DNA from: Candidatus Dormiibacterota bacterium
GTDB lineage: Bacteria; Acidobacteriota; Polarisedimenticolia; Gp22-AA2
Assembly: GCA_035635555.1 (NCBI GenBank)
Contig: DASQAT010000009.1
Location: forward strand, 1 to 41,548
DNA length: 41,548 nucleotides
Direction: 5' to 3'
Shown here: positions 2,634-23,428 of the stretch, in pieces
Position numbering within the stretch: position 1 is the stretch's first letter
Layout: every line of letters begins with the position of its first letter
Translations under genes and position numbers: made by a program
The notes under the pieces: generated by a model
What the model saw: the letters and a program-made list of their open reading frames with translations, nothing else
Told to the model about the DNA's origin: nothing
Database searches by the model: none

Positions 2634-4585
2634 GCCCGTCCCTTCACGAAGGCCCGGACACGCGGGACCAGCGCCTGGGCGGAGAGACCCACTTCGTCGA
2701 GGAGCTGGGGCATCGAACCGTGCATGACGAACCGATCGGGCAGGCCGACGTGGTGCAGCGCCCCCGGGGTCACGCCCGACTCGTGGAGCTGCTCGTGCAC
2801 TCCGTCGCCGAAGCCGCCGCGAAGCGTATTCTCTTCGAGGGTCACCAGGACCGGGTAGCGCGCCGCGACGTCTCTCAGGAGCGCGCCGTCGAGCGGCTTG
2901 ACGAACCGGCAGTTCACGACCGCGACGTCGAGATCCTCCTCCAAAAGCTTCTGCCGCACGGTCTCGGCCGTCTCCACCATCGAGCCGACCGCCAGGAGAC
3001 AGGCGTCGCGACCTTCGTGCAGCACCTCCCAGGTCCCGATCGGGATGGTCCTGAAGGGACGCTCGGGCGTAAACCGGCGGCTGGGGCGCTTGGGGTAGCG
3101 GATGGCGAACGGGTACACCTCCTGGTCGACAGCCGTCTTCAGGAGATCGCACAGCTCGTCGCCGTCCTTGGGAGCGGCGATCACGAAGTTCGGCACGGCG
3201 CGCAGGTAGGTCAGGTCGAACACGCCGTGGTGCGTCGGGCCGTCGGCCCCGACCAGGCCGGCGCGATCCAGGCAGAACGTGACCGGGAGGGACTGCACCC
3301 CGACGTCGTGGATGATCTGGTCGTAGGCGCGCTGCAGGAAGGTGGAGTAGATCGCCGCGACCGGCCGCATCCCCGAGATCGCCAGACCCGCGGCGAAGGT
3401 CACGCCGTACGCCTCCGCGATGCCGACGTCGAAGAAGCGCGACGGGTGCTTCTCTCCGAATTTCACCAGACCGGTGCCGTCGGCCATCGCCGCCGTGATC
3501 GCGACGACCCTGTCGTTGTCCGTGGCCAGCCGCGACATCGCCTCGCCGAACACCTTGCCGTAATCGGGGGCGGCCGCCTTGCCCGAGGCGGCCAGCGTCC
3601 CGGATGCCGGATCGAAGGCGGTGACGCCGTGGTAGACGCACGAGTTGGCCTCGGCGTAAGGCAGCCCCTTGCCTTTCTTCGTGATGACGTGCAGGAGACG
3701 CGGCCCCTTGACCGCCTTCAGGTTCGTCAGCACCGAGATCAACTCTTGAAGATTGTGCCCGTCCATCGGCCCGTAATACTGGAACCCCAGCGCCTGGAAC
3801 AATCCTCCGGGCACCACCACTTCCTTGAGCGATCGCTCCATGCGCTTCGCCAGCTCACCGGCGGGGACGCCGAGCGGCACTTTCTTGAGGATGTCGCGCA
3901 CTTCCTCTTTGAGCCGGTTGTAGTACTTGCTCGAGGTGATGCTCGTCAGGTAGGTGGAGATCGCCCCGACGTTCGGCGAGATCGACATCTCGTTGTCGTT
4001 CAGGATCACGAGGATGTCCCGCTTCGAGTGTCCGGCGTTGTTGAGCCCCTCGTAGGCCAGACCTCCCGTCATGGCGCCGTCCCCGGTCACCGTGACGACG
4101 TGGTGATCCTCGCCGGCGCTGTCGCGTGCCACGACCATTCCCATGGCCGCCGCGATCGACGTGCTGGCGTGCGCCACGCCGAACGCGTCGTACGGCGACT
4201 CGGTCGGGCTGACGAAGCCGGACAGCCCCTTGTACTGCCTGATGGTCGGAAGCCTGTCCCGACGGCCGGTGAGGACCTTGTGACCGTACGCCTGATGACC
4301 GACGTCCCAGACTATCTTGTCGCGCGGGGCCTCGAAACAGTAGTGCAGGGCGATGGTGAGCTCGATCGCTCCCAGGCTGGGGGCGAGATGCCCGCCGGTC
4401 TTGGAGACGACCTCCACGACGTACTCCCGCAGCTCGGCGGCGAGCCGCTCGAGCTCCGGGAGGCTCAGCTTCTTGAGGTCGGCGGGCGAATTGACGAAGG
4501 GCAGGATCGCCCCCGACCTGGCCTCTTCCTTCTGCACGCCGCGCACGGCCGGAACGCTCATCTTGTCTGTCAGGGCTTCAGACAT
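2630..4585 (-). CDS. dxs: 1-deoxy-D-xylulose-5-phosphate synthase
   Basis: A 651-residue thiamine-diphosphate enzyme that condenses pyruvate and glyceraldehyde 3-phosphate in the first step of the MEP isoprenoid pathway. The ThDP/Mg site is seen as GDGAMTGG at 168-175 and NDN at 196-198. DRAGLVGADGPTH, conserved in DXS, lies in the middle (pyrimidine-binding) domain, and a transketolase C-terminal domain follows. The chosen ATG (4585) has a GAGGAG site upstream; an in-frame start 10 codons earlier lacks one. It heads the dxs-pepA-moaB-oxidase run. The MEP pathway would supply the isoprenoids acted on by the geranylgeranyl-reductase-type flavoprotein at 14 kb, but that link is inference. Confidence 0.96.
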   Translation of the reverse strand: MSEALTDKMSVPAVRGVQKEEARSGAILPFVNSPADLKKLSLPELERLAAELREYVVEVVSKTGGHLAPSLGAIELTIALHYCFEAPRDKIVWDVGHQAYGHKVLTGRRDRLPTIRQYKGLSGFVSPTESPYDAFGVAHASTSIAAAMGMVVARDSAGEDHHVVTVTGDGAMTGGLAYEGLNNAGHSKRDILVILNDNEMSISPNVGAISTYLTSITSSKYYNRLKEEVRDILKKVPLGVPAGELAKRMERSLKEVVVPGGLFQALGFQYYGPMDGHNLQELISVLTNLKAVKGPRLLHVITKKGKGLPYAEANSCVYHGVTAFDPASGTLAASGKAAAPDYGKVFGEAMSRLATDNDRVVAITAAMADGTGLVKFGEKHPSRFFDVGIAEAYGVTFAAGLAISGMRPVAAIYSTFLQRAYDQIIHDVGVQSLPVTFCLDRAGLVGADGPTHHGVFDLTYLRAVPNFVIAAPKDGDELCDLLKTAVDQEVYPFAIRYPKRPSRRFTPERPFRTIPIGTWEVLHEGRDACLLAVGSMVETAETVRQKLLEEDLDVAVVNCRFVKPLDGALLRDVAARYPVLVTLEENTLRGGFGDGVHEQLHESGVTPGALHHVGLPDRFVMHGSMPQLLDEVGLSAQALVPRVRAFVKGRA

Positions 4586-4767
4586 CGCGCTCCTCGCTCT
4601 CGGGTAGGTCGGCAAATCTCAGGGAAGTCGCTGTCACTGCAGTCACATGGCCGGTAATCATAGACCCCGGGACCGGGCCGGTCAAGAACCGGCTCCCCGG
4701 GAGGCCGGAGCGGTCGTGGGCGTCCCGCGGCCCTGTGCTATAGTGCGCGGCCCGGCGGAGCCTCCGC

Positions 4768-5448
4768 GTGATCCCCCTCAAGGACGACAACCCGACACGC
4801 AGCGTTCCCTTCGTGACGGTCGTCCTCATTCTCGCAAACACCGCCGTGTTCGTCTACCAGCTGCTGCTCCCGCCGGAGGCTTCCAAGAGCCTGATCGCCG
4901 GGCTGGGACTCACACCCGCCCTGCTGACCGAGGCGCTCCTGCACGATCCGGGGCGGCTCGGCCGCGCCGGCGTGACGCTGCTGACGGCGATGTTCCTGCA
5001 CGGCGGTATCCTGCACGTCGCGCTGAACATGCTGTATCTGTGGATCTTCGGGAACAACATCGAGGACGTCATGGGTCACGGCCGCTTCGTTCTCTTCTAT
5101 CTAGGGTGCGGCCTGATCGCCTCACTCACGCAGGTGGCGGCGGCGCCGCACTCGAAGATCCCGATGATCGGCGCGAGCGGGGCCATCTCGGGCGTCCTGG
5201 GGGCCTACCTCGTGATGTTCCCGGTGGCGCGCGTCCTGACGCTCGTCTTCCTCGTCTTCTTCGTTCGTGTCGTCTCGTTCCCTGCGGTCATCGTGCTGGG
5301 CTTCTGGTTTCTCCTGCAGCTCGTCAATGCCGGACAGATGAGCGCGGGCGGCGGCGTGGCGGTGCTGGCGCACATCGGAGGATTCGTGACCGGGCTCGTC
5401 CTCATCCCGGCGTTCCGTCGCAGACGCCCGCGGCAGAGCCTCTTCTAG
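4768..5448 (+). CDS. Rhomboid family intramembrane serine protease
   Basis: A 226-residue polytopic membrane protein of the rhomboid family, which cleaves substrates within the membrane. The catalytic dyad is visible as GASG with Ser137 and AHIGG with His202. The conserved loop/helix residues H78, H83 and N87 (FLHGGILHVALN) are present. There are about six hydrophobic segments. The start is a GTG with GGAG 8-9 bases upstream, and a TATAGT hexamer (4739-4744) could be its -10 box, although no good -35 is seen. Its stop codon interlocks with that of the convergent gene in the palindrome CTAG (5445-5448). The substrate is unknown. Confidence 0.93.
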   Translation: MIPLKDDNPTRSVPFVTVVLILANTAVFVYQLLLPPEASKSLIAGLGLTPALLTEALLHDPGRLGRAGVTLLTAMFLHGGILHVALNMLYLWIFGNNIEDVMGHGRFVLFYLGCGLIASLTQVAAAPHSKIPMIGASGAISGVLGAYLVMFPVARVLTLVFLVFFVRVVSFPAVIVLGFWFLLQLVNAGQMSAGGGVAVLAHIGGFVTGLVLIPAFRRRRPRQSLF

Positions 5449-17408: not shown

Positions 17409-17483
<75 letters not shown>

Positions 17484-17536: not shown

Positions 17537-19492
17537 ATGCCTCTCACCGACACCTCCTTCTCCGAGATGCTGGCGCGCGGCCCCCTCGTCTTCGACGGGG
17601 CCATGGGGACGCAGCTCTACGAGCGCGGATACTTCATTACTCGATCGTTCGACGAGGCCAACCTGGCGCGCCCCGACCTGGTGCTCGGAATCCACCGGGA
17701 GTACGTGGCGGCCGGCGCGCAGATCATCGAGTCGAACACGTTCGGGGCGAACCGCGAGCTGCTGCGGCGCTACGGTGCGCAGGACCGGCTGCGAGACATC
17801 AACCGGGCGGGCGTGCGGCTGGCGCGCCAGGCAGCGGGACGGGCCGCCTACGTCGCCGGCTCCGTGGGGCCGACCGGGACTCTGGCCGCGAAGCTCACCG
17901 CCGAAAGACGCGCCATCCTCGACTCGGTCTTCAAGGAGCAGATCGAGGCTCTCGTGGACGAGGGGGTCGATCTGCTGGTCCTGGAGACCTTCATCGGGGC
18001 GGCCGAGATGGAAGCGGCCCTCCAGGCGGCCCGCTCTTTGTTTCCCGGCCCGATCGTGGCGCAGATGTCGTTCAGCGAGGACCGGCCTTCGGTCGACGGG
18101 CTGCCGCCGGCCCTCATCGCCGATTTCCTGCGCGATCGCGGCGCCGACGTGGTGGGGGTGAACTGCGCCGAGGGACCGGCCTTCGTGTTCGAGGTGGCGC
18201 GCGAGATGCTGGGTCACGGCCGGCCGGTGAGCGCGCAGCCGAACGCCGGCCGTCCCCGCCGCCTGGACGAGAGGACGATCTACATGACCACCCCGGAGTA
18301 CTTCGGGGTGTACGCGCGGCGGCTGTTCCAGAGCGGCGTGTCGCTCGTCGGCGGCTGCTGCGGCACGGGGCCCGAGCACGTCAGGCGCGTCGCGGACGCG
18401 GCCGCCATGATGTCGGGTGGAAGGGTCAAGGTCGAGGCGGCTAAGCCGGGAATCGCGATCCCCGAGGTGGGCCGCCCCCCGTCGGCGCCGATGGCGGAGA
18501 AGTCGACGCTCGGCGCGAAAATCGCGCGCGTCCATCGCGACCGGATCGACCCGGGCGGGCCGCGCCTCCCGCTCGCCGGTCCGGAGTCGTTCGTCGTCAG
18601 CGTCGAGGTCAACCCCGAGCCCGGCCTCGACCCCGGGCACAGTCTCGAGGCCGCGGCGATGCTGAAGCGCGCCGGTGTCGACGCGGTGAACACGGCGGAC
18701 GGGCCCCGCGCCGTGGCGCGCATGAGCAACCTGGCGCTGGCCCTGCTGATCCGCGAGCGGCTCGGTCTCGACGTCCTGCTGCACGTCTGCTGCCGCGACC
18801 GCAACCTGCTCGGGCTGCACTCCGATCTCCTGGGCGCCTGGGTCCTCGGTGTCAGGAACCTGGTCATCATCACCGGCGACCCGCCGAAGATGGGGGACTA
18901 CCCGGCCGCCACCGCGGTGTTCGATCTCGACTCGATCGGCCTGCTGCGGCTGGTCGACTCGCTCAATCACGGGGTCGATCCGGCGGGCAAGTCGATGCAC
19001 GACCGCACCTCGTTCCTGCTCGCCTGCGGCGCCGAGCCGGCGGCCCACGATTACGACCGCGAGCTGAGACGCCTGGAGGAGAAGAAGCGCGCCGGCGCCG
19101 AGTTCGTGATGACTCAGCCGGTGTACGACCCGGTGGTGCTGAGGCGCTTCCTTCTCGACATCCGATCGCTGGGTCTTCCCGTGCTCGTCGGGCTGTGCCC
19201 TCTCGCGAGTGCCAGGAACGCCGAGTTCCTGCACAACGAAGTCCCCGGCATGCAGATTCCCGCGGCGATCCGGGCGCGCATGGCGAAGGCCGCGTCCGCC
19301 GAGGAGGGCCGGCGGGAAGGGATGCTGGTCGCACGCGACATGCTCCTCGAGGTGAAGGACGACGTGGCCGGCGCGTATCTCATGCCGCAGTTCGGCCGCT
19401 TCCGCACCGCCGTCGAAGTCCTGCAGCCGCTCGGATACGACTTCGACCCGGAGGACCGCCAGGACGCTCCACATCCTCGAGGTCGCCCGTGA
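17537..19492 (+). CDS. Bifunctional homocysteine S-methyltransferase / methylenetetrahydrofolate reductase
   Basis: A 651-residue fusion like the YitJ type. The N-terminal homocysteine methyltransferase domain (about 10-300) has FDGAMGTQLYERG, the zinc ligands C210 (GVNC) and C274/C275 (GGCCGTGPEHV). The C-terminal domain (about 345-640) is a FAD-dependent MTHFR TIM barrel with RDRNLLGLHSDLLGAW and IITGDPPK. It makes methionine from homocysteine and reduces 5,10-methylene-THF. ATG 17537 lies 53 bases after tRNA-Thr. The stop overlaps the kinase gene's GTG by 4 bases. Confidence 0.93.
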   Translation: MPLTDTSFSEMLARGPLVFDGAMGTQLYERGYFITRSFDEANLARPDLVLGIHREYVAAGAQIIESNTFGANRELLRRYGAQDRLRDINRAGVRLARQAAGRAAYVAGSVGPTGTLAAKLTAERRAILDSVFKEQIEALVDEGVDLLVLETFIGAAEMEAALQAARSLFPGPIVAQMSFSEDRPSVDGLPPALIADFLRDRGADVVGVNCAEGPAFVFEVAREMLGHGRPVSAQPNAGRPRRLDERTIYMTTPEYFGVYARRLFQSGVSLVGGCCGTGPEHVRRVADAAAMMSGGRVKVEAAKPGIAIPEVGRPPSAPMAEKSTLGAKIARVHRDRIDPGGPRLPLAGPESFVVSVEVNPEPGLDPGHSLEAAAMLKRAGVDAVNTADGPRAVARMSNLALALLIRERLGLDVLLHVCCRDRNLLGLHSDLLGAWVLGVRNLVIITGDPPKMGDYPAATAVFDLDSIGLLRLVDSLNHGVDPAGKSMHDRTSFLLACGAEPAAHDYDRELRRLEEKKRAGAEFVMTQPVYDPVVLRRFLLDIRSLGLPVLVGLCPLASARNAEFLHNEVPGMQIPAAIRARMAKAASAEEGRREGMLVARDMLLEVKDDVAGAYLMPQFGRFRTAVEVLQPLGYDFDPEDRQDAPHPRGRP

Positions 19493-21561: not shown

Positions 21562-21768
21562 ACGCGCGGTCGACGGGCGAAACCTGACCGCATTTCGGCA
21601 GGTGTTCGAATTCAGGCAGCCGTCTCCCCTGCCGGGCATTCCGGTGCGTCGCGGGGGAACCGAAGCCCGGTCAGCGTGTTCCACGGTGGATCGTCATCGG
21701 CCGCAGTGTTGGCACGCCGCTTGAAGTAGAGAACATCGGGCCACGGTGGCCACGAGGAGGAGCACACC

Positions 21769-22521
<753 letters not shown>

Positions 22522-22531
22522 GGAGGCGGAC

Positions 22532-23428
22532 ATGAAAATCAACGAGATGAAGGCCGGCGGCAGCGCCGTCCTGTTCGGCGTCATCCCCGTGGGGACGGCG
22601 TTCGGCCACTGGGTCAGCAAGCTCATCGCACTGCCCCAGCTGAGACGCCTCGCAACCGGAGAGATTCCCTGGACGCCGCTGCGAAGACCGCTGGCGCAGA
22701 GCACCGTGGCGCTCGTCTCGAGCGGCGGCGTGCACCTGCGAAGCGATCGCCCGTTCAACCTCAATGGGGATCCGACCTTCCGCGTCATCCCGAATGGAGC
22801 ACAACAGGCCGATCTCGCCATCTCGCACCAGGCGTACGACAAGACCGATGCACTTCGGGACATCAATCTGGTGTTTCCGATCGAGCGCCTGCGCGAGCTC
22901 GAGACCGAGCGGGTCATCGGCCGGCTGTCCGACGTTCATTACGGATTCGGATTGATGGGGAGCGCCAAACGGCTCATGCCGGCAATCAAGGAGGTCGCGC
23001 GACGCATCAAGGAGTCGGGTGTCGACCTGGTTCTCCTGGTGCCCGCCTGACCGATCTGCACGCGGTCCGTCGGACTGCTTGCCAGAGAAATCGAGGCCAG
23101 GGGCGTGACGACGGTGGCCCTGGGTCTCGTCAAGGAGGTCGCGGAGGCGGCCCGCGCGCCGCGCTTCCTGTACCTGCACTGGCCCTTCGGCCACGCCCTG
23201 GGCGAACCGGGCCATGTCGCCCAGCAGCGAACCGTGCTCCACGACATGCTCACGATGGCGACACGCGCGCCGCGCCCGGGGCTGGTCGTCGAGCTCCCCT
23301 ATCGCTGGCGACGCCATGCGTACACGGCCGTCCGTGACTGGAAGGCGCCAAGCCCGGCCGTCTCCGCCGAATTGTCCTCACTCACGGGTCATGGCGTGAC
23401 GGGGGAAGCTCAACGGAAGAGCGCATGA
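22532..23428 (+). CDS. Selenoprotein of the glycine/sarcosine/betaine reductase subunit B family (in-frame TGA = Sec173)
   Basis: The reading frame runs 298 codons from the ATG at 22532 (site GAGGAGG) to the stop at 23426-23428, with a single internal TGA at 23048-23050. Both halves belong to one family. The first has STVALVSSGGVHLRSD, ISHQAYDK and VFPIERLREL. The second resumes as PICTRSVGLLAREIE straight after the TGA. Family members I know carry Sec here in a UPVC-type motif; here it is U173-P-I-C176, a UxxC redox pair. A SECIS-like hairpin follows (23062-23078). Its role outside glycine reductase is not established; a redox or reductive function with the neighbouring SDR is inference. Without Sec insertion a 172-residue fragment would be made. 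It ends 19 bases into a convergent gene. Confidence 0.92.
23062..23078 (+). promoter_or_regulatory. bSECIS element of the GrdB-family selenoprotein
   Basis: GCGGTCC-GTC-GGACTGC forms a 7-bp stem (one G-U) with a three-base loop whose first base is G. The loop starts 19 bases after the last base of the TGA codon. Below a C/T mismatch three more pairs form (23058-23060 with 23080-23082). This matches the known bacterial rule of a small apical loop with an early G about 16-37 nt after UGA. Confidence 0.82.

Follow-up and report, generated by a model that had tools for sequence, protein, structure and literature searches.

The question raised by this locus is whether an in-frame TGA at codon 173 of a 298-codon frame is read as selenocysteine (Sec) and, if so, what kind of protein results. 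The window (the whole stretch of 41,548 nucleotides that was analysed) comes from an acidobacterial genome, G000, of 4.28 Mb and 99% completeness. The following features define the gene.

22522-22526, plus strand: Shine–Dalgarno-like GGAGG, identified from the sequence, 5 nt before the ATG
22532-23428, plus strand: PrdB-like selenoprotein gene, 298 amino acids with predicted Sec at 173
23048-23050, plus strand: UGA at codon 173, predicted to be read as Sec (the U of U-P-I-C); the TGA is shared by every orthologue and almost every homologue

Frame inspection placed the start ATG at 22532 and the next stop after codon 173 at TGA 23426-23428, and translation with U at the internal TGA gave A-U-P-I-C-T around codon 173. 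The frame, the codon number, the length and the UPIC motif are all as reported in the first-pass annotation. Standard gene callers would cut the product at residue 172, hiding nearly half of the protein. The open frame by itself is weak evidence, because at the window's 69% G+C a random frame of 125 codons is free of stops in 35% of cases.

Three close orthologues were identified: L058 (81% identical to the window gene; the same contig as in the congeneric genome G001, 'Acidobacteria bacterium gp22 AA4'), L059 (79%; an Acidobacteriaceae MAG) and L060 (69%; positions 4016-4915 of that locus, from an actinobacterial Streptosporangiaceae MAG). The TGA recurs at this codon in all three, within LLVPAUP[IL]CTRSVGLLAR, and U-P-[IL]-C-T-R-S-V-G-L is identical across the four genes. 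As four independent assemblies share the TGA, a frameshift at this point, which had been named as one way in which the Sec reading could fail, is excluded. The codon at the Sec site was TGA in 104, TGC in five and GAA in one of 110 homologous loci (excluding a duplicate and the copy in the window itself, and with some genomes present twice). Homologues thus continue past the TGA rather than all ending at residue 172, a second way in which the reading could have failed. Pairwise dN/dS was 0.13-0.21 before the TGA and 0.11-0.32 after it (one saturated value left out); with low values on both sides, purifying selection acts downstream of the TGA as it does upstream. The windows of lowest synonymous change in the gene, all eight of them, start no more than four codons from the TGA and cover both the TGA and the hairpin that follows it.

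23062-23078, plus strand: SECIS apical stem-loop of 7 bp with loop GUC; position and pairs conserved, with covariation
23052-23093, plus strand: extended SECIS hairpin with lower helix, from the minimum free-energy structure; the lowest synonymous rate of the gene lies here

The apical stem (arms 23062-23068 and 23072-23078) begins at a distance of 11 nt from the TGA; the first-pass annotation put its SECIS-like hairpin 12 bases downstream, nearly the same. Its place directly 3' of the UGA and the GU in its apical loop are those of a bacterial SECIS. In 87 distinct Sec sequences the mean number of stem pairs was 6.39 of 7, against 4.31 in synonymous recodings that preserve the protein and local codon usage; the total was 556 pairs in the real set against a maximum of 399 among 500 recoded sets. 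Pairs 15-31, 18-28 and 19-27 vary on both sides (with CG/TA/GC, AT/TA/GC and GC/CG among the variants), and the apical loop begins with GU in 81 of the 87 sequences. The six homologues without TGA have four stem pairs each. For the window gene alone, all seven pairs were kept in 0.5% of synonymous recodings, and the folding energy of the whole hairpin was unexceptional (p = 0.14). Since this single-gene energy test is not significant with the coding sequence kept, the assignment of a SECIS rests on position, pairing and covariation. When the window gene was aligned with L058, L059 and L060, a stretch of 18 nt was identical in all four; it runs from the fourth codon downstream of the TGA and reaches into the loop. 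An Rfam search gave no match at the gene.

The genome contains selB (334 bits, contig C55), selA (542 bits, C31) and selD (366 bits, C46), each above the cut-off of its profile, together with a tRNA-Sec gene (selC, C28) with a UCA anticodon; the absence of selA, selB or selC, which would have counted against Sec, was therefore not encountered. The selD gene (L022, G000:C46:119634-120566) itself encodes a selenoprotein, with an in-frame TGA in SGGUAAK. No selA was found in the genome of L059, and that of L060 has selA only as an 86-codon fragment; the missing complete gene perhaps reflects MAG incompleteness in both. The combination in L060 of the TGA, a near-identical SECIS and a selA fragment is compatible with transfer, an incomplete assembly or a misbinned contig.

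Judged from these sequence comparisons, selection maintains UGA-173 as a sense codon, with a conserved SECIS at the right distance, in a genome with selABCD. Because the TGA is conserved, dN/dS stays low after it, the hairpin is conserved and covarying, and the Sec machinery is present, the earlier proposal of Sec at residue 173 is upheld as a near-certain prediction. That the TGA is a true stop, ending a 172-residue protein or marking a pseudogene, has in its favour the frequency of long chance open frames in G+C-rich DNA; it is scarcely tenable against the shared TGA of four independent assemblies, the selection downstream, the conserved stem and a confidently predicted fold that draws on both halves of the protein. 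Least probable of all is a suppressor that decodes UGA as Cys or Trp, for which no support was found and against which stand the full selABCD set, the UCA anticodon of the tRNA-Sec, the SECIS and the gene's own terminal stop, which is also TGA.

The protein matched the Pfam family GRDB (PF07355) with 36.1 bits, above the gathering score of 22. Its best NCBIfam match was PrdB (TIGR04483; 173.2 bits, under the equivalog cut-off of 300), a model that every sequence in a 69-member alignment of relatives also matched. GrdB-type NCBIfam models scored about 50-56 bits, all below cut-off; TIGR01918 (GrdB/GrdF/GrdH) reached 55.0 bits against a subfamily cut-off of 65.45 and covered only profile positions 263-408 of 431. 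The UxxCxxC motif of GrdB/GrdF/GrdH (PMC13188914) is incomplete here: U173-P-I-C176-T-R-S179 is without the second Cys. Within PF07355 the nearest described family is PrdB and not GrdB, which corrects the label 'GrdB-family'; PrdB-like is the better name. In the tree the window gene, L058, L059 and L060 form one clade (100% SH-aLRT) on a stem of about 0.69-0.80 changes per column; authentic PrdB from Peptoclostridium, Enterococcus and Facklamia lies close by but separately. A side branch next to authentic PrdB, with L043 and L047 (at around base 1920 of the minus-strand match), carries UPEVC or CPEVC (UxxxC), and L057, sister to that branch, has UPVC.

The kind is already known, since a Sec family has been named 'PrdB' from the Sargasso Sea and GOS surveys onwards. 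The former reported 42 Sec 'proline reductase PrdB' sequences in 2005 (PMC1088965), and the latter 235 Sec 'PrdB' with UxxC, against 110 Cys homologues, in 2008 (PMC2398784). These metagenomic proteins share PF07355, UxxC and Sec with the window protein, and their role is given by name alone; as described, they would differ from the window clade in its own stem branch, its N- and C-terminal extensions and its soil-type acidobacterial hosts. The tree places the window gene in a distinct four-member clade within this widespread family. Authentic PrdB (TIGR04483; Peptoclostridium acidaminophilum and Enterococcus gilvus) is 34-38% identical to the window protein, with the profile match at residues 45-261 and Sec or Cys at the same place (UxxC or CxxC). 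GrdB, GrdF and GrdH have a homologous C-terminal half with Sec at the homologous point, but are about 431-435 residues long as against 298. The RefSeq 'glycine/sarcosine/betaine reductase selenoprotein B family protein' of Roseomonas (WP_207415257) is of the same family and likewise stands alone in a non-Stickland bacterium, but has Cys instead of Sec and lies in the other half of the tree. In Roseomonas (L148, 7893-10278), the Cys form of the family and a gene with the annotation protein adenylyltransferase SelO are in convergent orientation.

The gene is patchily distributed within the window's genus: the orthologue is present in G001, a Sec paralogue of 40% identity in G003 and G004, and neither in G002. 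The wider PrdB-like family was present in 101 of 396 sampled genomes of the phylum, about a quarter, and in many others, mostly with Sec. In one group of acidobacterial MAGs (Holophagales / Thermoanaerobaculia, 'Candidatus Multivorans'; L063-L077 and L106) the family lies in a syntenic region, and several of these genomes have two different Sec PrdB-like genes each.

21769-22521, plus strand: short-chain dehydrogenase (SDR) gene (PF13561, PF00106), ending 10 nt upstream of the PrdB-like gene

The SDR gene is probably co-transcribed with the PrdB-like gene; it does not adjoin the orthologues at L058-L060. Further upstream in the window are an AHSA1 gene and an ArsR-type gene. The neighbours are an ECF-type sigma factor and an alpha/beta hydrolase at L059, and a PEBP gene and membrane proteins at L060. 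Clustering over 81 loci gave apparent sets of conserved neighbours, which were rejected as one group of closely related genomes together with out-of-frame coding shadows; no neighbour was common to distant subfamilies among these loci, and no conserved neighbour hints at a substrate. As orthologous loci have no neighbours in common, the gene seems to have been passed on or moved by itself, as one unit. Positions 21709-21726 of the window, 5' of the SDR/PrdB-like pair, read TTGGCACG-CCGC-TTGA, which resembles a sigma-54 -24/-12 promoter; the critical -12 element has A, not C.

AlphaFold2, run with the 69-row alignment, gave a model with mean pLDDT 90.6 and pTM 0.88, poor solely at residues 4-20 and the last few. 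The model is one alpha/beta domain that spans both halves through residue 173. Residue 173 is predicted to follow a strand (166-170) and to lie at the N-terminus of a helix (174-188), with Cys176 one turn on. In the 69 homologues, position 173 (Sec or Cys), P116, L169 and R211 are invariant and C176 is nearly so. Among thiol and selenol enzymes, a nucleophilic Sec with a resolving Cys would be expected to be placed in this way. Sequence and profile searches of the PDB found no solved relative, and all Foldseek E-values were above 0.001. Fold matches are weak: the best by VIA-align, to microcystinase C, has a Z of 8.9 and by itself reveals no function.

The best explanation as a whole, to which we give a probability of about 0.65, is a selenoprotein with one domain, belonging to the PrdB-like branch of the GrdB/PrdB superfamily (PF07355), that would act as a Sec/Cys (UxxC) reductase of a small substrate. 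SelB and Sec-tRNA would insert Sec at 173, and the selenolate, placed at the helix N-terminus behind the beta strand, would attack a small electrophilic or oxidized substrate. Cys176 would then resolve the intermediate as an Se-S bond, which a thioredoxin-type reductant would reopen. A UxxC-type mechanism of this kind is suggested by the motif, the predicted fold and the distant relatives, and is judged probable, slightly less so than the reading as a whole. Candidate substrates are a disulfide, a peroxide or a carbon electrophile, among which the sequence does not discriminate. The putative 'different redox role' of the first-pass annotation is a fair inference.

A special case of this explanation is GrdB-like chemistry, with the selenolate attacking a carbon atom of a small organic substrate and breaking a C-N or C-halogen bond in it. 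Homology to GrdB/PrdB, where Sec is the nucleophile, points in this direction, as does the alpha/beta hydrolase gene near the L059 orthologue; with no PrdA-type carbonyl subunit found and with neighbours that vary between loci, it is considered unlikely, if clearly the best placed of the alternatives. GrdB-like FarB, which has a partner subunit, has been proposed for fluoroacetate dehalorespiration (PMC10838667), and by analogy the GrdB/PrdB superfamily may take other substrates.

A role as the Sec subunit of D-proline or glycine reductase in Stickland fermentation is very unlikely. The PF07355 and PrdB matches agree with it, as does placement in the same 99%-supported half of the tree as authentic PrdB. 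Against it, the protein scores below every NCBIfam cut-off and its motif is UPICTRS instead of UGTCHRS or CGTCHRS. PrdA (TIGR04480) had no match in G000, in a search whose hits in two Facklamia genomes were weak and below cut-off; GrdA (PF04723) likewise had none in G000, and the control genomes gave none either. No prd or grd gene adjoins the window gene, unlike in Enterococcus gilvus, where prdC-prdA-prdB lie in a row. The earlier observation that partner genes are not adjacent was accordingly borne out, and for PrdA it extends to the whole genome. The window protein is not a D-proline reductase, since neither the pyruvoyl subunit PrdA nor a prd operon was found.

For the preferred reductase reading, the clade suggests a further step, which we put forward tentatively and at somewhat less than even odds: the four members may be a separate stand-alone selenol reductase with its own substrate, derived from amino-acid reductases, without a pyruvoyl/carbonyl partner, and moved between Acidobacteriota and Actinomycetota. 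The family still bears the name of a Stickland enzyme, which the window member cannot be, and among the papers searched none reports a functional study of PrdB-like selenoproteins that stand alone. Such a small, stand-alone member, with a confidently predicted fold and no known partner subunit, offers a practical route to the function of the family.

Elsewhere in the window, positions 17537-19492 hold a fused homocysteine S-methyltransferase/methylenetetrahydrofolate reductase gene, just before which lies a tRNA-Thr (CGT) at 17409-17483.
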